Made by a program: the position numbers and the translations under genes | Part shown: positions 5,190 through 30,383 of the stretch, piece by piece | How positions within the stretch are numbered: the stretch's first letter is position 1 | Layout of the letters: every line of letters starts with the position of its first letter | NCBI GenBank assembly: GCA_034687125.1 | Contig: JAQGBZ010000053.1 | Span: forward strand, 1-64,000 | From: Neelides folsomi | Lineage: Eukaryota; Arthropoda; Collembola; Neelipleona; Neelidae | Direction: 5' to 3' | Length of the DNA: 64,000 bases | The notes under the pieces: generated by a model | Told to the model about the DNA's origin: nothing | Seen by the model: only the letters and a program-made list of their open reading frames with translations | Database searches by the model: none

Positions 5190-7556
5190 CCTAAAAATAA
5201 AGAAAATGAATTTAAATGGCACAATAAAAAATCACCAGGTCTCCTGATCATCAGCCACAAATTACAAAGTTATGCATGATTCAAAGATGTTAATTATAAC
5301 ATGTCCTACATTTTAATCTACTAATATGGAATTGTATAATTGAAGGAAGAAACTGATGAAATTAAATATTGCTTACTCTCAATTCAATAGTTCAATAGGT
5401 CAATTTTGGGTGCTGATGAACTTCCAATGCTTTTAAATGCACACAAACTCCAAGCAAATGAATCGCTTGAAAGTTTGTGATTCTCAGATGGAAGTGTTAT
5501 CAAAGGTCCGTCAAAAGTCAATATGGATTTCTGTGTTTATTGTGTGTAAGCTACATAGAAAAAGGAATTATTATATTACTCATTTTGACTACAAAACCTT
5601 GTTAGAATGATAAAAATATACAAACAAGGATAAAAATGATGCAGACAATTCAAACAATCCATCCTCTTTAATAAATAGTAGAAAAGATAAGGTTGTAATC
5701 ATTCCTTCATTTAATAAAACCATTCAAAGATAGACAAAATAAAACTATACAATAAGTCAGGTGAGCTAAAAGTTACAAAATAAGATAAAAATAATTTAAT
5801 GTGTTTATTATTCTTATGCTACAAACACTCTGATAAATTACTTCTTTGGTTTTTACATAATGTTTGATTAAAAATCTTAATTGAATAACTTATAAAATAT
5901 GTATATTAACAAATATGTTTAGGTCCATTTCATAATATTTCAAAATAATTTGAAATTGAATGAATACAAAAAAATTAATTTGATTGAATTGACTTCACAC
6001 GAAAGTTAAAAAAAATCAATATTGATTGTTATATAAAATTAACATTAGAACCTCATTAATGTAAATAATTATACCTTAATTGTGAATTTCCGTTACGCCA
6101 TCACACCATCACTTTGTTCAGATTCTGAGAAAATAATTCCCTTTATTACAACATTTTTGCAATTGTGCAGAAGCCCGATTTTAAGAAAGAATCGCTGAAC
6201 AACTCACCATTTAGAATGCTGGAGACGTGTTGTTGTTCTATAGGATATCTCTCACTCTTTCTCACTCCTCTTCTCACACAACTACGGTGAACACAAACAA
6301 TGCATTAAACATGAGCCACTTTCGCGTAATAGTTCTATTGTTGATGTGCAAAAGTATTCTAGTTGGTGAATGATTAATTACTTAAGGTTAGTTAACTCGG
6401 GTGAGAGGAAGGATGTTAATGATAGAAAGTCTATGATGATGGTCCGTTTGTTCACGTTCTAATAAAAATGTTATTGGAATAAATTGAAGGACCGAGGGTT
6501 GGGGAGGAACTGCGTGGGAGCGAAATAAATGTGAGATTATTTTGTTTTGACGAGGTTTGGAAGAATCCATAAGATTGGAAGCTCATTTGACCGTGTCATT
6601 GAGAATAAAGGAAAGAGCCAGGGGCAAGGATGTCCAACAAAGCCTACAATATATTCGATGAGGAGGAACATTCAGGGAAGAGATTTTCCTATTCATCTAC
6701 GTGTCTACAATCTACTTTAACTACCTTTGTAGGTGTAGGTACATTCCTTCAATAATTCAATATAACATATCAGGCAAGGCTTTCCATAATTCATCCATCT
6801 ATAGGAGATATTTGCATGAACATTTCCCACTTTGAATGCCCATTCCTTAGCTCATCACATCAGCAGTCATTTAGTATAAATCTTATAAATATAAATGTGA
6901 CTAGTTATTACTTACGAGACTTGTGAGTCCAGATCAGACTCATTCACTCTTTATCGACAATTTGTACACTCTGCGTATCTCATTTTCAATTTGCATTCAT
7001 TCACAATAACTCTAAACCTAATGGAATGTAAGTATATGGAAAATGGTAAATTTTACCAAGTCAGTTTAGGATAAGTAAGCCAAGTTTATGATAGCACTCA
7101 AAATAAATGGGAGGTTTGCTGTAACGAATATTCATTTTCAGAAAAAAGACTATAATGCAGTGCTAAATTCGTATAAAAATCATTGTAAATTGGTATATCA
7201 GATTAAATATTTAACCATTGTTATACTTTAGATAATGTAAAGCTAACAATGCCTATTAAAACTAATATGTATAATGAGTTATGACATGAGGATATATTAT
7301 AAAAATTAGGTATTTGGAATAATAACGAGTTTTTATATACTTTTGAATGGTAAATGCTTGCAAATTGCAATGTGCTTTGGGGTTTGGAGTTTTGGAGTAT
7401 GAAATCCTAGTTCAGATTACAGCAGCCTATAAACCCATAAATAAAAGCGGCGGATAATCCCTTTTTGAATCCTTTCCTACTTTCATAAAACTTTCATTCG
7501 CCGACGGCCGACCTCATTCCTTTGACCGCTCAGCAGTTTCTTTGACCCGGTGGGGA
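5190..7556. other. Divergent promoter region between AGPAT3 and TyrRS
   Basis: This holds the 5' ends of two divergent genes. On the minus strand a consensus donor (GTGAGTT, 6201-6207) ends a plausible non-coding first exon of AGPAT3. On the plus strand ATGGAAT followed by GTAAGT at 7021-7033 could be a TyrRS first exon. Spliced to the AG at about 7532 it would stay in frame and add a short N-terminal extension. The rest is AT-rich with no other recognisable content. Confidence 0.4.
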
Positions 7557-9289: not shown

Positions 9290-10878
9290 TTAATTTTTTG
9301 GGGTTCCCCATATTCTCAATCGAGCAACACCACCGTCTGGAGCCATTCTGATCCTAACGTGTGTAACGTCTCCACATTTTTCAATTTCTTCACTATAAGT
9401 GTGGTCGCTGTCGGCCTTCATCTAAATAGAAAGTTTATTTTTTACAAAGATAAAATTTGGAAAAATTAGCAGTTTATTATGCAAAGCTCTAAAGTTAATT
9501 ATTTATGCAACTTAAATACATTACCTTCTTTGCTGGAAGGAGTCTTTTCCAAGGAGCTCCATTCAATTCAACCATTTCAGTTTCTTTTTTCAAATTCTCC
9601 ATGTTGCAAACTTCAATCGTGCATGAATCTGGGAAGTTTCCTTTGAAATGAGTTGTTAGGATTTCCACCTTCTTGATATCTCCAGGAACTCCAAGTCGAA
9701 AAGCTGCCCATTCTGTTCCCGGAACTTGAAGAACTCCTTGACTGTCCGCTACAAGAATCTCCGGTCTATCGAGTCTCCTCGCAGTTTCCCATCCATCTCC
9801 CATATTAATTGAGCTTGGCTTTTGAATCATATTTCTTGGATGTCCATAATGAGCATCACTGTACCCAATACAGATTCCTCCATTTTCCATTGCAATCAAG
9901 TCGACTAATCCTCCCTATAAAAACATTATTTAACTAATACGATACATTCAGTAGATTTGTGTGCCTAAGCATATTTTATTAACGTCTATCAATGGTTGCA
10001 TTCATTATTTAAATTGCAATTTTTCTTTTGACTCACACAAGAATTGTTAGCGATAATGTCCTTAAGATCTCTTTGAACTTGACCATAAACTCTCAACCTT
10101 GCGATTCCTCCGTCTGGATACATATTGAGTCTTAAGTGAGTCCAAGTTTCTCTACTCTCAACCTCAAAGTAATTATGACAAGTGTCGATGTAGCCTGGTC
10201 CCAATTTAGAGTTTTTTACAATGGTTGTCCATTTAATGCTATTTAGTTTGTCAACTTCGTCAAATTCTGCTTTGGTTGCTGCTTTTCCATTTCCCCTTCT
10301 TGAACGTGGAGTTGCTGCTTTTTCTATAAGTAATAGCGTAATTAATTGTATGTAATAGTAACTCATTATAAATAACATTGAAATAAGGTTAAGATTTAAA
10401 CCTTGAGGTTCGATTCGTGCCGCTTGAATTGACATTTTTGGTGTATTATTTCCTGTGAAGAAAGCGGTATTGACATCCACTCCATGGATGACCCCAGGAG
10501 ATGAGAGTTTAATGATTGCCCAATCATGTCCAGGGATTCTTTTTCTGCGAGTCTCCCATCCGTCCATCCATTTTCCATAGTCGTCGAATACTCCTTCTTT
10601 CCATTCAGCCTCACTTTCCTAATTTGTCAAACACAATTTAAATATCAAAATTATTAGCCTTTAGAATCTATTTATTTTCTTGAGATTAATTTTTTAAAAC
10701 ATCTTAAAGAATAAAAATCTATCGACTTTCATTTTACCTTTAGTAAATTTTCCGCCGCAGCAAACCAATCGTCAGTCGCAAAAACAATAGCTGCTCCGTG
10801 CTTCTCGCTGCAGAGGTTGTTGAGTTCTGTGAACTTTGCCTTTTCGCTTCCTCCGTGGTTGAGTGGTCTTGCGGCCAT
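9290..10878 (-). CDS. ALLC: Allantoicase
   Basis: Allantoate amidinohydrolase (EC 3.5.3.4), which splits allantoate to ureidoglycolate and urea in purine breakdown. Exons in coding order: 10738-10878, 10402-10618, 10037-10323, 9525-9914, 9290-9421 (1167 nt, 388 residues). The fold is an internal duplication and both halves are visible. DGWETRR.R..GHDWAIIKL in the first half pairs with DGWETARR and EWAAFRLG in the second, and THLRLNMYPDGGIARLRVYG pairs with THVRIRMAPDGGVARLRIWG at the end of each half. The start codon at 10878 gives the usual N-terminus with FATDDWFAAAENLL. Convergent with TyrRS: only 198 bp separate the stop codons, and a TTTATT (AATAAA on the minus strand) lies at 9270. Length is normal for the family. 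Confidence 0.97.
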
Positions 10879-22573: not shown

Positions 22574-23486
22574 ATGCCGCCTAAAGCTAGAAGGATCGCA
22601 GTCCTGGGATTTCGATCCGTTGGAAAAAGCTCCCTCACAATTCAATTCGTAGAAAATCAATTTGTTGACACTTATGAGCCAACTATTGAGAATACCTTCA
22701 CAAAAAATGTTAAAATTCGTGGACAAGAATATCAGGTAAATTTTAATTGTCTTATTTGCAATCCTCAATGCCAATCTCATTTTCTTTGTAATGTGCTGTG
22801 AAAGTTTATGCAAAAGAGCAAATTCGAATCATGAAAACATTACTATACTCTATTCCATTTGAGAAGATTATTGAGAATTGAATCATGTTACTTGACAAGT
22901 CATTAGAAATTCAAATAAACCGATATTATTTCCTGTAGAAATTATTTGCGGATGACATGACATTTGATTGCCCTGTCAAGTAACATGATTCAATTCTCAA
23001 TAATCTTCTCAAATGGAATAGAGTATAATTAGCATTTAACATTAATGATATTTTGCATTTATTACAAAATTAATTTATGAATTGAAGGTGACACTTGTGG
23101 ACACTGCTGGTCAGGATGAGTATTCAATATTCCCTACTCAATACTCAATGGATATCCACGGCTACGTTCTCGTGTACTCCATCGTGGATCCGAGGAGTCT
23201 CGAGGTCGTTCAGATAATTTACGACAAGCTTCTGGACATGACAGGGAAAGTGAACGTTCCGATGGTCCTTGTTGGTAACAAGAAGGATCTCCACGCTGAA
23301 CGCAAGATTCCAGTCGAACAGGGAAAGAAGTTGGCTGAGTCTTGGAAGGCCGTGTTTCTTGAGGCATCAGCCAAGAACAACGACAGTGTTGCTGACATTT
23401 TCTCCGCCATTCTGGCTCAGATCGAAAAGGCCGACGGAACCTCCCCAAGTCAGAGCGGAGACAAGAGCGGATGTTTGGTCGTGTAA
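22574..23486 (+). CDS. RHEB: Rheb small GTPase
   Basis: Ras-family GTPase that activates TORC1 on the lysosome and is switched off by the TSC1/2 complex. Two exons, 22574-22735 and 23088-23486 (561 nt, 186 residues; human 184). Seen: P-loop GFRSVGKSS (12-20) with the Rheb-specific arginine where Ras has glycine, effector region YEPTIENTF, G3 DTAGQDEYS, GNKKDL, EASAK, and a C-terminal CLVV prenylation box (Cys183). The ATG at 22574 lies eight bases after a splice acceptor and gives the conserved start. The intron carries a hairpin MITE. AATAAA at 23658. Confidence 0.97.
22844..23027. mobile_element. Hairpin MITE in the RHEB intron (TA-flanked)
   Basis: Two 54-bp arms, 22844-22897 and 22974-23027, are perfect reverse complements around a 76-bp spacer. 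The outer ends read TATACTC and GAGTATA, compatible with a TA target duplication and therefore a Tc1/mariner-type foldback element of about 180 bp. It sits wholly inside the single RHEB intron. No coding content. A structured intronic RNA is an alternative reading. Confidence 0.75.
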
Positions 23487-24419
23487 CGGAACCCAGCTAT
23501 GTTAAAAACCCTTTATTTTCAACCTTGTACAACTACGAATTATAAGTTTTTCGCATAACATTCTATTCATCGTCCGAATACTTACAAATTATTTAGAGAA
23601 TACAAGAACAACTTGACTATATAAACTAAAAATATTATGTAAAAGGTACCTTCTTAGAATAAAGATTTTCTTTATTAACTCAGACACATCTTGGAGATTA
23701 TTCATTCATACATATTTTACATTTTATAATAAAATACCTAATTAATAAGTATTTGAGCAAATATTTGTATTATTTATTTTCATTCTACATGTTTAATACA
23801 ATTATCTTTACATACTATTTGTACGAATAACTAATATCTATACCTAATACTTGTGTATGCTATACTATTTTTAATTGACAACAATGTTAAATGCAAGGGT
23901 ATTATCCCATAAAATTATTTTACCAAGATAATTCTACAGTTTAGCTTAATCAACTTGAATCAAACTTCCAGCATCAAGAAATATTCTAGTATTTAACGAT
24001 ATGCTACTTCATACATAATGGATTTAATTATTCACTAATGAGGTCTAAATTGTTCTACATACACCAATGTTCCGATGAAATGAAAGATGAAATAGTCCGC
24101 GTATGTTAAAGATTGATTAGTTTGATAAAAATCATTATTTAGGGAAAGACTGGGAGAAAGACTTGTGTTTAGCACTTGCAATTGCAGTGGAGATGCAGGT
24201 AGATTTGTTTTGTGTGTTTAAGTATAGGGATGACAGAAGAAGGGAAAGAGCGGCATTTGTCTCATATGAAACTCATAGCAGGTGCGTCAGGGGTGTGGTG
24301 TGTTGAATTTGGATGTGAGAACTCTGACAGACAAGCCTATTTTATTTTAATAATTATAATGTTAGCGTAACGCAGGTCTCTCATTTTTAACTATAATTAA
24401 GCTCAAAGTTCAGCTGTTG
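23487..24419. other. RHEB 3' UTR and spacer
   Basis: Contains the RHEB 3' UTR (AATAAA at 23658-23663), then AT-rich spacer and the leader/promoter of the next gene. Nothing else is recognised. Confidence 0.5.
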
Positions 24420-27400
24420 ATGATGGGTCGTAGTAAGGTTGTGAGAATTGACTCGAGCGAGGGGAGACTTGTCAAAGTGTGCATTGGCCTTTTGCTCATT
24501 TTCATTGGATTTGCCTCTGGACAGTTTAATTGGCAAACAAGGGACAATTTTGACGAAATTAAGAAGAGATACGACCAAGTGACACCGGATAATTGTCAAA
24601 TACGGCAACGAGATGACCTCTATTTACCAGAAGATTCCGTCTCGCACAAACCAGATATCAAAGAGATCAACATTAACCCCGTGTTCCCTAACCGGACAGC
24701 TCTCTTGCATCTTCATAATATGGCTTTGACCAGGGCCTTTTACTGGTCATACATTCTTCAGAGTCGGTTCATTAGGTATGATTGTATTTTAATATAAATT
24801 ATTTCAAGTTAAAGTGAATCATCATCTAAAAAAATTATTATTTATTTCAGACCTGCAATCAACGACACTTACGATCCAGGTATGATGTATTATTTTCTCT
24901 CGACAATTGCTGATGTCTCTGCGAATCCAAAGATCAACGCTTCAGCAATCTACTTTGCTCCAAATTCATCATTTTCTCCGAGTTATCGTGGATTCTTCAA
25001 TAAGACTTTCCCACTATTTGCACCAAGAACTTTCCGGTAATAACAATTTCGATTTTAATTTACTTACATACTGTCACAGATGTGATGCTGAGACAAATAA
25101 TGTGATTAAAAAGTAAGTTAATCCTTCATTCATGTTTAATGTTTTTTAGAGCTGACGACTACAATGATCCCATCCATTTAGGTAAACAAAACATTCTTTG
25201 ATACTCACGATTCTCTAATTTATAATTTAAAAGTATTTATTGTAGATAACTGACTCTATAAAAATAGTGCTATATTTTTATCATGCTTTTATATCAATAA
25301 CTAAATATTTTTATAGAGAGGATTTCGACTCTCAATACGTTCATTGTAAGGGATTTGGGAGCTGTCCCACCAAATAGCCAAAGCTACAACTATACAACTG
25401 ACTACTATCGCATTAATGATTGGTATAAACAATGGCTTCCCGATAACGTCGGAGATCGACATGACACAAAGACAACTTATGAAGTCGAGATTCGATACTC
25501 GAATAATACAAATGAAACATTCACTTTTCACGGCCCAAGAGGTTACATTCAAATTCTTTTTTATTCCTAATATGAATCCACTATGTATTATTTTATAACA
25601 TTACGATTAGTTTGAAGAAATCTTAATTTTCTCATTTAAATCTCTAGGTGCCGATGAGGAACCTGGCCCAGTTAAATGGACAAGGCCATATTTCGATTGC
25701 GGTCGAAGTAATAAATGGATCATTGGAGCCGTTGTACCAATTGCCGACATTTATCCACGTCATACTGGATTTCGACATGTTGAATATCCGACCTACACTG
25801 CTGCTGCTGTACTGGAAATGGATTTTGAGCGGATAGACATAAATCAATGTCCGAAGGGCGAAGGAAACAAAGGACCGAACGTATTTTCAGGAACATCGAG
25901 ATGTAAAGAAGATACAACTGAGTGTGAGCCTTTTCATGGTTACGGCTTTCGAAGAGGAGGCTATCAATGTCGATGTAAGCCTGGATTCAGGCTTCCTTAC
26001 GTGGACAGAAGACCTTATCTGGGAGAAATTTTAGAGAGAACTTCTGAAGAGCAATACAAAAAACATTTTGATTGCCAAAAAATTGGATGTAAATTATTTA
26101 TTCATTTCCATTTAATTATTTATTTAAATAGTTTAAATTAATTTTAAATATTGTCTTAAATCAGTTACAAGGACAGAAATATGTAATGGTTCATTTTGTT
26201 AAATGCAGGGATTCAAAAAATGCCTGTGGAATGGGAAGTTTCTCCTTGGCACATTCGCGAAAAATATTTGGACCTTTATTACAATTACCGAAACTTCACT
26301 TACAATGAGCTGGACTATACACCAGATCTGAGTAAAACATACCCAGCCGAACTAATTTATTACATGGAAAGACGCGAGAGAGAAGAAGATTTAAGACGAA
26401 GAGATGAGGAACAGACCAGACAACAAAACTTTTACAGTCAGAATCAAAACCAGCAGCAGCAGCAGCAACAGCAACAAACCCCACGATACAATCCATACAG
26501 CAATAATTATAATAATAATTATAATAACAATAATCGAAGGAGAGAAGAGGAAGGAGACTCTGTTCTTACAAGGCAAAAGAATCTCAATATTGATTCAACG
26601 ATTCGGTTCATAAGAGCAATAAATGCGAGAACTTGCAAAAATAAAACGTAAGAAATAAACTATGCATTTATCGATTTATATACAATTCGTCTCTATTACC
26701 AACTAACGTAACTGAATTAAAAAATAACTTACTGGCAAGTTTATAAATTGCTGTCACACCGCGCCAACTCTTTTAAAACAGGAGCAGAATTTTGTACTTT
26801 TGATTTACATTAAACGTTTTAAAAATCCTTGGAGTTATTTAGAAATTCAATATTCCAAATACTGTTTCTTTTTAAATGTTATGGCGCGGTGTGCCAGGAA
26901 TTTGTAAACTGACCAGTATTATTTTAATTTAGAATTATCAAGCGAGCTCAGGATCTCGTACTTATGGGAGACATCGGTTACGGAGCACAAGAGCAATATG
27001 AAAATGAAGCTTTGATGGCAGTCCGCCTGGCCAATTTCATTTCATCCTACTTACAAATCGTTGATCCTAATGAAGTCTTCCCGGGAAAGAGAGTCTCCGA
27101 TAAACCTCTTTCAGAAGATCAAATGATCGGCGAGACTCTGAGTCTCGTTCTTGGAGATACGAAGATTTGGTCTGCTGGAACTTTTTGGGAGCGGAACAAA
27201 TTCACCAATCGGACTCTGTTTGCTCCATTTGCCTACAAGAAACAGTTGAATACGAGGAAATTCAAATTGGAAGACTTGGCTCGAATCAACGCAACTGACA
27301 AAGTGTATTTGAACAGGCCTTGGTTTAAGTTTCTTAAAAACAGATGGGCAACTAACTATGACGAGCTTGAAAGACACTACTTAAAAATTCACATGAGGAA

Positions 27401-28068
27401 CAATGAGACTGGCGATTTTCTACGCAAGTTTGAGCAATATCCAACATCTTACAGGTTCGATACACAATTTGTTATTAAGAATTTTTTAAAAGAATTAAAT
27501 CACTCACTTTTTGTTATTTAAATGAAACAAAGAAAATAAATTGGTTTAAATTTTCAGAGCTGCCAATCTTGGACATGGACATTGGACTACGCCTTATTTT
27601 GACTGTGAAGGTCCGGTGCCAATGTGGCTGATCACTTACTCTGTTCCATTCTTTGGCTGGGATGGGTTAAGAGCCAATTTGGAGTTTAAAGGAGTCGTTT
27701 CCGTATCAATGGATCTTCTCCAATTGGACATTAATCAATGTCCGGACGACTACTATGTTCCAAATGCTTTCAAAGACTCTCACAAATGTGACAAGGCAAC
27801 TTCGTATTGCGTCCCCATTCTTGGACGCCTTTTTGAAACCGGTGGGTACAAATGTGAATGTCTTCAGGGATACGAATATCCTTTTGAAGATCCAATCACT
27901 TACTTTGACGGCCAGCTTGTGGAGGCCGAATTTACGAATCTCGTTATGAACAAAGAAACGAGGTTTGACATGTTAAAGTGCCGATTAGCTCATGCGGCGG
28001 GTCTCGCGTCCAACGTCGTTCTCGTCACTTCAACAATCATCTTCGCTCTCTTCCGCTGGCACTTTTAA
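24420..28068 (+). CDS. Secreted or GPI-anchored protein with two GPR158-type ectodomain modules
   Basis: Eight exons: 24420-24775, 24851-25036, 25150-25181, 25317-25541, 25648-26088, 26209-26647, 26933-27454, 27558-28068 (2712 nt, 903 residues; phases close). A signal peptide lies at about 1-35. Module 1 (about 36-400) ends in PYFDC (280-284) and a cysteine-rich EGF-like part with DINQCP, SGTSRCK, GGYQCRCKPGF. A linker rich in Gln and Asn (CAG/AAY tracts near 26450-26540) follows. Module 2 (about 560-870) repeats the plan: PYFDC (746-750), FKGVVSVSMDLLQLDINQCP, ETGGYKCECLQGYEYP. These stretches resemble the Cache plus EGF-like ectodomain of GPR158/GPR179. No seven-helix domain follows. The protein ends in a hydrophobic run and FRWHF, suggesting a GPI signal or a single membrane anchor. 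Many N-glycosylation sequons. Function unknown; an extracellular ligand-binding or adhesion role is inferred. Confidence 0.85.
26730..26918. mobile_element. TA-flanked MITE in the GPR158-like gene
   Basis: Inverted terminal repeats of 37 bp at 26730-26766 and 26882-26918 match at 32 of 37 positions. Both outer ends read TACTGG and the inner ends share CACACCGCGCCA. A TA at each end fits a Tc1/mariner-type target. Length 189 bp with no coding capacity. It lies in the intron between exons 6 and 7, only 14 bp upstream of the acceptor of exon 7. Confidence 0.82.
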
Positions 28069-29119
28069 AGATCTTCCTTCCGTCCGCAACAAAGTTTTAA
28101 TCACTTTTAACTTTTACATTTATGTATTTATATACCAAATGCTTTCCAATTCATGCTTTGATCAATCGTAATTTTTCAAATGTATCTCAGAGAATTTCAT
28201 CCATCCAGTTTTTACTTTAAATGAGCACAATCAAGTTCACAGAGTATTTTTCATATAAGATTCAAGCACTGTAGTATAGATATAAGAGCAATGATAGTTT
28301 TTTGACAATACATGTACTTTAATCTATTGTGTTGTGCAACAATAGATCTTTTTAAATCTTTGTTAGTTTTTAGTGAAACAATAAATAACAACTTGTATGT
28401 TATTAATTTTAAAAAATATTGTAGTTAATAACTTAAAATCAAAGATTTTAGTGTCACGTAATGTTACAATTTCAAAATCTAATTAAATTAATTGAATTGT
28501 AAAATGTAATTGTTGTGTCATAATCTTAAGGAATTTGTAAGACTAATTGTATTATTTAAATTGTTTCTAGTGTTAATTGTTGTTAATCAGTTAATGTGTT
28601 TTAGTTGGAAGTTAAATGAAATCATCAAATTCAGAAATATTTAAGACTCCTATTATATTTCCTCACTGTATAAAACTTTATTGAAACATTCCAAACGAGC
28701 TATAATATCTCAATTCTATTAACTATAATTATCATACTTGTAATTTCTGTTTAAAAGTAAATCGTTTAAGATTACAATAGTACATCTTCATTAAATCTAA
28801 ATATATGACCGATGGCTACTTTTGTACTTTTGTAATGAACATCATTTATACCTAATAAAGAAAGTGGAGCTGACATTGAGTAATTTATATTTGGTTTTGT
28901 CTGAGAATTATTCATATCATAATTCATTATAGGGATTCTCAGAATAATCCAAGAATGTAGGGATATTCGATATTAAATATAAGGTGATTGTTTTTATACT
29001 AATTCGACTATGCTAATTACGAATCTGAAGATAGTTTGCGTCTCTCGCGTGAAATAACAAAGTTGTGAATATTTAATATTTTTGCATCTGTATTGTTGGA
29101 TGTAAAAGGAAGTGAAATA
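28069..29119. other. 3' UTR and AT-rich spacer
   Basis: Probable 3' UTR of the GPR158-like gene with AATAAA signals at 28379 and 28854, followed by unassigned AT-rich sequence up to the minisatellite. No coding exon recognised. Confidence 0.5.
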
Positions 29120-29451
29120 TGTCCCCGTGATGTTCCTGTGATATCCACGTGATGTCTCGATGATGTCCGCGTGATGTCTCCACAATGTCCGCGTGATATC
29201 TCCGTGATGTTCTTGTGATGTCTCCTTGATGTCTATGTGATGTTCCATTGATGTCCGCGAGATGTCTTCGTGGTGTCCGCGTGATGTCTTCGTGATGTTC
29301 CGATGATGTCTCCGTGATGTTCCTGTGGTGTCCTTTTGATGTTTTCGTGATGGCCGGTCTCTTTAATGTATCCGTGATGATCCTTTGATGTTGCCGTGGT
29401 GTGCCCGCGATGTTCCCGCAATGTCTCCGTGATGTCTCCATGATGCCCGCG
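29120..29451. repeat. 12-bp-period minisatellite (GTGATGTCTCCG type)
   Basis: About 330 bp built from roughly 28 degenerate copies of a 12-bp unit near GTGATGTCTCCG. Copies differ at several positions (for example CGCGTGATGTCT and CCGTGATGTTCC), so the array is old or has mutated. Because the period is a multiple of three, several minus-strand frames stay open and yield repetitive His/Asp/Thr-rich translations that are not genes. It directly abuts the transposase remnant on its right. Confidence 0.93.
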
Positions 29452-29454
29452 CCA

Positions 29455-30111
29455 GTTTCCTTTATCTTTTATAACAAACATGAGTGTTTTGGCTGTAAAA
29501 CATGAAGAATCCAATGCATGCTGGTTTCGCAGAAATCTTCACATTTTTCATTCTCTGGTATTACTGAATTTGACAATGCCCATATCCTATCGTTCTTATA
29601 ATCGGTTTTCGTACAAGATAAATATAAAATTCATCACTTGGGGCCAAATGCATAGCATCTTCTTCATCCCAATTAATAAGATACTCGCAAAACCACATGC
29701 GATCATCAATATTTAACTTTGTTTTCATTGGTTTACGAACAACATGAAAAGCTTTGAGTTTAATTGATTTTCTGAAGCTTCTAACTGTTGAAACGCTGAC
29801 TATTTTTTGTCTTTTTACTAAAATTTCAGCAACGACACTTGAACTTTTTTTCTTTTGTTCGATGCTTCAATGATGAGGTTTTTATAATCTTGGTTTAAAA
29901 TTTGTTTTCTTCCATTGTTGCTAAAATCGGCTTTACAATTTTCGTATGATTTCTTCATTGTTCGCTTTACCCAGCTAATTGAACGCTTTAATTTATTTGC
30001 AATCCACTGTTGAGTCACAAACAAAGCACCGGCATCTCGGACTTCTTTCCAAGCAAGAGTTTTTACTCGATCAATAAAACGCTTATCTTCAGTGTCTCCA
30101 ATAAGATTCAT
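29455..30111 (-). pseudogene. Decayed Tc1/mariner-like transposase
   Basis: Reading leftward from 30111, the first piece (30111 to about 29820) begins MNLIGDTEDKR and contains an N-terminal helix-turn-helix (VTQQWIANKLKRSISWVKRT). A second frame continues with VSVSTVRSFRK and KPMKTKLN.DDRMWFCEYL, then WDEEDAMHLAPSDEFYIYLVRKP, whose SDEF carries the first catalytic Asp typical of Tc1-like enzymes. A further frame gives FTAKTLMFVIKDKG and ends at the minisatellite. At least two frameshifts and loss of the C-terminal third, including the remaining acidic residues, make it inactive. The sequence near 30375-30387 (CAACTACCCTGTA) looks like a Tc1-type terminus, so the 5' end of the element may be there. 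Confidence 0.82.
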
Positions 30112-30383
30112 TATATGACTTTATATTAAGTAATGATAGGATATTTTAAACCAGAGAAATGAATAAAAATTGGAATTTCATACCCTCTCATTTTCTTATT
30201 TTAGTCTCAATATTTGGGGATTTTTTCTCAAGGCCCCATTAAAAAGTTAATTGCAATTAAAGTTAAAATATTAATGCTCTCTAAGATGTATTTTTGCACG
30301 CTCTTTCGAATGGTATATGTTACAGCTTTGTGCAATGATCAGAAGTATCATTTACGTATGGTAGCAATCATTTCCAACTACCC
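30112..30383. other. Probable 5' flank of the Tc1-like element
   Basis: Non-coding sequence between the transposase start and a terminus-like CTACCCTGTA. It probably represents the element's untranslated end and terminal repeat. The matching opposite terminus was not found. Confidence 0.4.

Follow-up and report, generated by a model that had tools for sequence, protein, structure and literature searches.

The window analysed here, a stretch of 64,000 nucleotides (C53:1-64000) from a genome of 75.1 Mb in 840 contigs that set the scope of our searches, carries at 24420-28068 (+) a gene predicted to encode two copies of a GPR158-type module on one chain (Table 1). We picked the exons by eye, from the sequence alone; when joined, the eight of them yield 903 codons in an open frame, followed by a stop codon. 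An in-frame stop is located upstream of the start codon at 24363, and the frame is closed by the in-frame stop at 28066-28068. All seven introns are of the GT-AG type (75-285 bases in length), and the GC content is 0.37-0.45 in the exons as compared to 0.16-0.29 in the introns. As judged by the open frame and the splice sites, the eight predicted exons and the stop at 28068 put forward in a preliminary description of this DNA stand.

Table 1. Features of the double-module gene (positions in the window)
Feature	Position	Strand	Content
Exon 1	24420-24775	+	Start codon, signal-peptide-like hydrophobic segment (residues ~17-35), front of module 1
Exon 2	24851-25036	+	Module 1 front (Cache half)
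Exon 3	25150-25181	+	Module 1 front (Cache half); 32 bases, the least certain exon owing to its size
Exon 4	25317-25541	+	Module 1 front (Cache half)
Exon 5	25648-26088	+	Module 1 last Cache strands and EGF-like part; PF22572 match 25674-25988, E 6.1e-23 genome-wide
Exon 6	26209-26647	+	Q/N-rich linker (residues ~414-536), then start of module 2
Palindromic repeat element	26730-26918	+	Noncoding, inside intron 6; 49-nt inverted arms
Exon 7	26933-27454	+	Module 2 front (Cache half)
Exon 8	27558-28068	+	Module 2 last Cache strands and EGF-like part, hydrophobic tail, stop; PF22572 match 27580-27873, E 1.4e-25 genome-wide
Hydrophobic C-terminal segment	27985-28053	+	Residues about 877-899, then RWHF and stop

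The encoded protein is laid out as a signal-peptide-like start (hydropathy 1.98 over residues 17-35), module 1, a low-complexity Q/N-rich linker, module 2, a hydrophobic tail and the residues RWHF, and it contains 13 N-glycosylation sequons. The tail begins right after the last cysteine (875) and reaches a Kyte-Doolittle value of 1.95 over 19 residues; hydrophobic 19-residue windows span 877-901, in agreement with the earlier claim of a hydrophobic tail with RWHF alone behind it. Inspection by eye for the usual GPI pattern (a small residue at the cleavage site, a short spacer and a hydrophobic tail) showed small residues around A878-G882 followed by a hydrophobic run at 887-899, but the protein ends in RWHF. 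Since the signal-peptide-like start, the sequons and the disulfide-type modules all point outside the cell, the protein is probably extracellular, with the tail, which directly follows the last cysteine, probably at the membrane. Tethering of the protein to the membrane is, in our estimation, likely.

The tail sits where the first helix of a receptor would be, and we considered it as a vestigial helix 1. The position fits this candidate; the likeness to helix 1 of the GPR158-type receptor gene on contig C74 (see below) is not significant, with 60 out of 500 shuffles reaching its score.

Two copies of a GPR158-type module

The Pfam profile GPR158_179_EC (PF22572, cut-off 28.1) matches the 903-residue protein twice (172 bits, E 4e-51). 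When the copies are taken separately, copy 1 scores 84.1 bits (E 1.1e-23) and copy 2 scores 92.7 bits (E 2.3e-26). Similarity to the GPR158/179 ectodomains, the lack of which the preliminary description had named as fatal to its own reading, is therefore found in each copy alone, both passing the PF22572 cut-off. A search of the PDB gives the same picture: the E values for the first part (536 residues) are 2.8e-10 against GPR158 (42.7 bits) and 1.7e-8 against GPR179, and those for the second (368 residues) are 2.5e-16 against GPR158 (62.8 bits) and 4.7e-11 against GPR179. Up to E 1, the only further match is at 0.34 for the first part and at 0.091 for the second; below 0.05, GPR158 and GPR179 are the only matches. 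A profile built from the two copies finds GPR158 in the PDB with E 3.1e-18 and, up to E 5, GPR158 and GPR179 alone. The assignment to the GPR158/GPR179 family, proposed earlier, is thus upheld. VWA or α2δ families are absent from the seven Pfam matches of the whole protein at E <= 1.

The motifs PYFDC, DINQCP and GGYxCxCxxG were said to occur in both copies, and they do, with their cysteines at 284/750, 334/795 and 374+376/833+835, respectively. In the residue alignment, PYFDC falls on PYLEC of GPR158 (P268-C272) and DINQC on DIDQC (D314-C318); across GPR158 and GPR179, the motifs P(Y/F)(F/L)(D/E)C and DI(N/D)QC align residue by residue, as do the first five cysteines of the EGF region. The six EGF-region cysteines are located at 334, 352, 359, 374, 376 and 409 in copy 1 and at 795, 811, 818, 833, 835 and 875 in copy 2, the sixth being matched to the receptors by order only. 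General EGF profiles match the modules below their own cut-offs. GPR158 is described as combining an α/β PAS-like (Cache) domain with an EGF-like part that has three disulfides, followed by a lower loop with two more disulfides that contacts the helices (PMC8611064), and the Cache-EGF combination is reported as a metazoan class C receptor architecture in an eLife survey (PMC12716839). The two further stalk disulfides of GPR158 lack matching cysteines here: no cysteine follows the EGF region in copy 2, and none follows it in copy 1 before module 2. Every PDB match is confined to the back part of the module; the GPR158-type similarity demonstrated at the sequence level covers the last Cache strands and the EGF-like part, about 100-120 residues.

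The claim of two module copies also holds. Counted from the WTxPYFDC motif onward, the C-terminal halves of the copies align with a score of 175 (z 30); the repeat is not due to chance, as the maximum score among 500 shuffles is 56. The N-terminal halves score 44, a value reached by 10 of the 500 shuffles (z 2.6). The copies are about 30% identical over the whole alignment and 38% identical over the matched Cache end and EGF-like part. Given identity this low even over the matched part, the sequences indicate that the tandem duplication is old and did not arise through misassembly. Support for the front of the Cache fold is weak in both copies: the case for two full Cache domains consists of collinearity and of a single cysteine preceding each copy (residues 59 and 556), which the alignment pairs. 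The PDC/Cache-type profile PF22673 (cut-off 27) gives 32.2 bits for copy 2 and 15.3 bits for copy 1, and is silent on the Cache front, since its best stretch lies on the back of the domain. AlphaFold run on the two-row alignment of the copies returned a pLDDT of 32.5, with every residue below 50.

At the positions of GPR158 Y269, E271 and D307, which we take to be glycine contacts, the alignment places Y, D and E in copy 1 and Y, D and S in copy 2; the comparison is limited to the alignable part of the module, and contacts in the N-terminal half fall outside it. Because both copies keep the tyrosine and exchange E for D, and the third residue is E in copy 1 as compared to S in copy 2, ligand binding appears possible, more so for copy 1. 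The position of D314 is occupied by D in both copies and that of D316 by N in both, as in GPR179; in GPR158 these two residues are described as corresponding to calcium-coordinating residues (PMC8611064). Binding of glycine to the Cache domain is reported for mammalian GPR158, the identity of which as a glycine receptor dates, according to the same source, only from 2023 (PMC10695916). A small-ligand role for the double module can be suggested tentatively.

Seven-helix domains in the same genome

The preliminary description stated that the seven-helix domain is lacking, and our searches of this contig agree. No 7tm_3 match was found in the 903-residue protein by Pfam search, none of the 16 exon-level 7tm_3 matches in the genome (E <= 0.001) is on C53, and a local scan of C53:1-74000 with three GPR158-type helix queries stayed at noise (best E 0.26). 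The cytoplasmic tail that recruits RGS7-Gβ5 is likewise absent, RWHF alone following the hydrophobic segment. With neither helices nor cytoplasmic tail, signalling in the manner of GPR158 is impossible for this protein. A G-gamma profile gave three matches in the genome, which are uninformative for RGS7.

Matches to 7tm_3 were found on nine contigs, three of which (C480, C74 and C210) were checked against the PDB and the other six by eye. The C74 gene at 66541-69003 (-) (loci L035 and L043-L046) has seven helices and matches GPR158 with E 3.3e-6, the next family following at 0.038; its 7tm_3 match, taken over four exons that we joined by eye, reaches E 5.7e-24, and an EGF-like CxC stalk is visible by eye right before helix 1. 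On C480, a helix exon at 7389-7532 (+) (loci L015 and L049) matches GPR158 with E 8.9e-8, GPR179 with E 2.1e-4 and, as the next family, mGlu2 with E 0.63. No companion exons for it were found on this 42.7-kb contig, and it may be a fragment or belong to a fast-evolving gene. The C210 match is of the mGlu type. Querying the genome with GPR158-type proteins returned C74 and C480, plus two weak matches on C29 and C325. The helices on C74 and C480 indicate that the GPR158 receptor class exists in the same animal. Its genome gives 39 matches to the cuticle-protein family PF00379, which mark it as an arthropod, and three to an odorant-receptor profile, which speak against a receptor set like that of insects.

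The module and the helices are found at different places. Genome-wide, PF22572 rises above its cut-off at the two copies of the double-module gene alone; the sub-cut-off candidates on C11 and C27 (E 0.5 and 0.9) cover the profile end only (positions 61-96). The C74 and C480 receptors thus differ from the double-module gene in having class C helices, which it lacks, and in having no PF22572 match among the matches listed up to E 10. A four-sequence profile, which includes both copies and whose matches to them on C53 are therefore circular, detected no ectodomain module in C74:50001-90000 or in the whole of C480 (best E 1.6). When the two copies served as queries, no frame scored better than C74:70375-70259 (-), which at E 0.48 is not significant; it is located upstream of the first-helix exon, the very place at which one would look for an ectodomain of the C74 receptor. 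Also upstream of the helices, an open frame of 210 residues at C74:70793-71422 (-) has a signal-peptide-like look and no Pfam match. As these module searches took exons singly, a module split by introns could escape them. The sequence suggests that the C74 receptor lacks an ectodomain recognisable as a GPR158_179_EC module, and it may have a diverged ectodomain of its own. Upstream of the C74 gene we also noted coding-like frames on the + strand at 76992-77888, 78046-78648 and 79194-79649.

Possible roles and relatives of the double module

From the anatomy of the gene we infer, as follows, how the protein is anchored, how it arose, how its modules pair, and what it may bind and do. We favour, with a probability of roughly 0.6, a tethered extracellular double GPR158-type module without helices that would serve as a ligand-binding co-receptor or decoy at the cell surface. 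Two GPR158-type ligand-sensing modules, each with a Cache end and an EGF-like part, would be carried on one chain with a flexible linker between them, and the short C-terminal hydrophobic segment, acting either as a GPI signal or as a single helix, would hold them at the surface. The gene most likely originated from a GPR158-type receptor through tandem duplication of the ectodomain and loss of helices 2-7 and the cytoplasmic tail. Within the one chain, the two modules may pack against each other in the manner of the receptor's ectodomain dimer: GPR158 ectodomains are described as dimerising side by side (PMC8611064), so that a double module on a single chain makes mechanistic sense. So arranged, the protein would bind either a matrix partner or a small ligand resembling an amino acid, and in this way would modulate the animal's own GPR158-type receptors or compete with them. 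The economical role would be that of a ligand sink, decoy or co-receptor working alongside these receptors.

A freely secreted matrix or adhesion protein, its tail removed or never acting as an anchor, would instead use the EGF-containing modules for protein-protein contacts, for example with proteoglycans, and not for small ligands. The EGF-like parts of the modules (below EGF cut-offs) and the 13 sequons would suit such a protein; moreover, GPR158 reportedly binds a heparan sulfate proteoglycan and GPR179 is said to bind dystroglycan-pikachurin, both in support of this reading. The last module is directly followed by some 20 hydrophobic residues, however, which suit an anchor better, and we consider free secretion rather unlikely. 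It is quite improbable that we are looking at a split receptor, its sensing module moved to a separate tethered single-chain Cache dimer that acts in trans on the helix partners encoded on C74 and C480, which have no recognisable module; this reading is weakened by the possibility that the C74 receptor itself carries a diverged ectodomain.

The missing helices could also mean that the gene is decaying or that our model of it is incomplete. A nonfunctional remnant of a truncated receptor on its way to loss would account for the failure to find seven helices, either with 7tm_3 on C53 or in the scan of C53:1-74000, and for the lower GPR158 likeness of copy 1 as compared to copy 2 (42.7 versus 62.8 bits). 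All eight exons are open, however, with intact splice sites in 7/7 introns, and both copies keep the six EGF-region cysteines at about 30% identity, which would be unexpected without selection; a remnant is very unlikely. If instead an isoform or longer transcript added seven-helix exons, the gene would encode a receptor of the ordinary kind, apart from having its ectodomain twice. The exons were deduced from sequence alone and the helix search comprised three GPR158-type queries and one profile, which leaves some room for this explanation; against it stand the in-frame stop at 28066-28068, the absence of 7tm_3 matches on C53, the noise-level result with all three queries over C53:1-74000, and a further coding frame at ~31088, 3 kb downstream of the gene, which we take to be TMEM256-like. 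We regard an incomplete gene model as most unlikely.

The tethered double module would be set apart from its relatives by its architecture. GPR158 (metabotropic glycine receptor, mGlyR) and GPR179 belong to the same Pfam family, PF22572, but have one module where this protein has two, together with a seven-helix domain, which was not found here, and a long cytoplasmic tail in place of the RWHF end. The module itself is known, and what is unusual is its arrangement. Outside the receptors, the α2δ subunits of calcium channels are Cache proteins that a GPI anchor holds at the outside of the cell, and may serve by analogy as an example of a Cache protein working without helices. For Drosophila smog, GPR158 is reported as the closest human protein (PMC6778782); compared by description only, smog is an arthropod GPR158-like class C GPCR, in contrast to the double-module protein, which lacks the helices. 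Searches by tblastn of viral contigs (53 pattern stretches) and prokaryote contigs (19 pattern stretches) returned no relatives, a result that is silent on arthropods, and among the matches listed in the open-access literature there was no description of a free double-module GPR158-type protein. Public databases may well contain a relative that has a name but no study devoted to it. The GPR158 ectodomain has so far been treated as a part of a receptor; if our favoured reading is true, the protein would be a natural soluble or tethered form with which to look for binding partners of the module and to see if it can act without the signalling domain.

Repeats and neighbouring genes

Intron 6 is long because of the palindromic element that it contains (189 bp), being 96 bases without it. 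Elsewhere in the genome the element is present at no fewer than 23 sites; at nine of these it is full or near-full length, with 96-97% identity, which suggests a MITE-like family that was active recently. Another hairpin, at 22844-23027, consists of two 91-nt arms that are 82% complementary and 2 nt apart; it is located in an intron of the neighbouring gene, which is presumably Rheb-like. Downstream of the double-module gene, a degenerate tandem array with units of ~11, 44 or 55 bp (63-72% matches) occupies 29119-29352, followed at 29561-30120 (-) by two overlapping open frames that we take for a remnant of a Tc1/mariner-type transposase. The open frames at 9498-10618 (-), at the other side of the gene, presumably encode an allantoicase, which they resemble.
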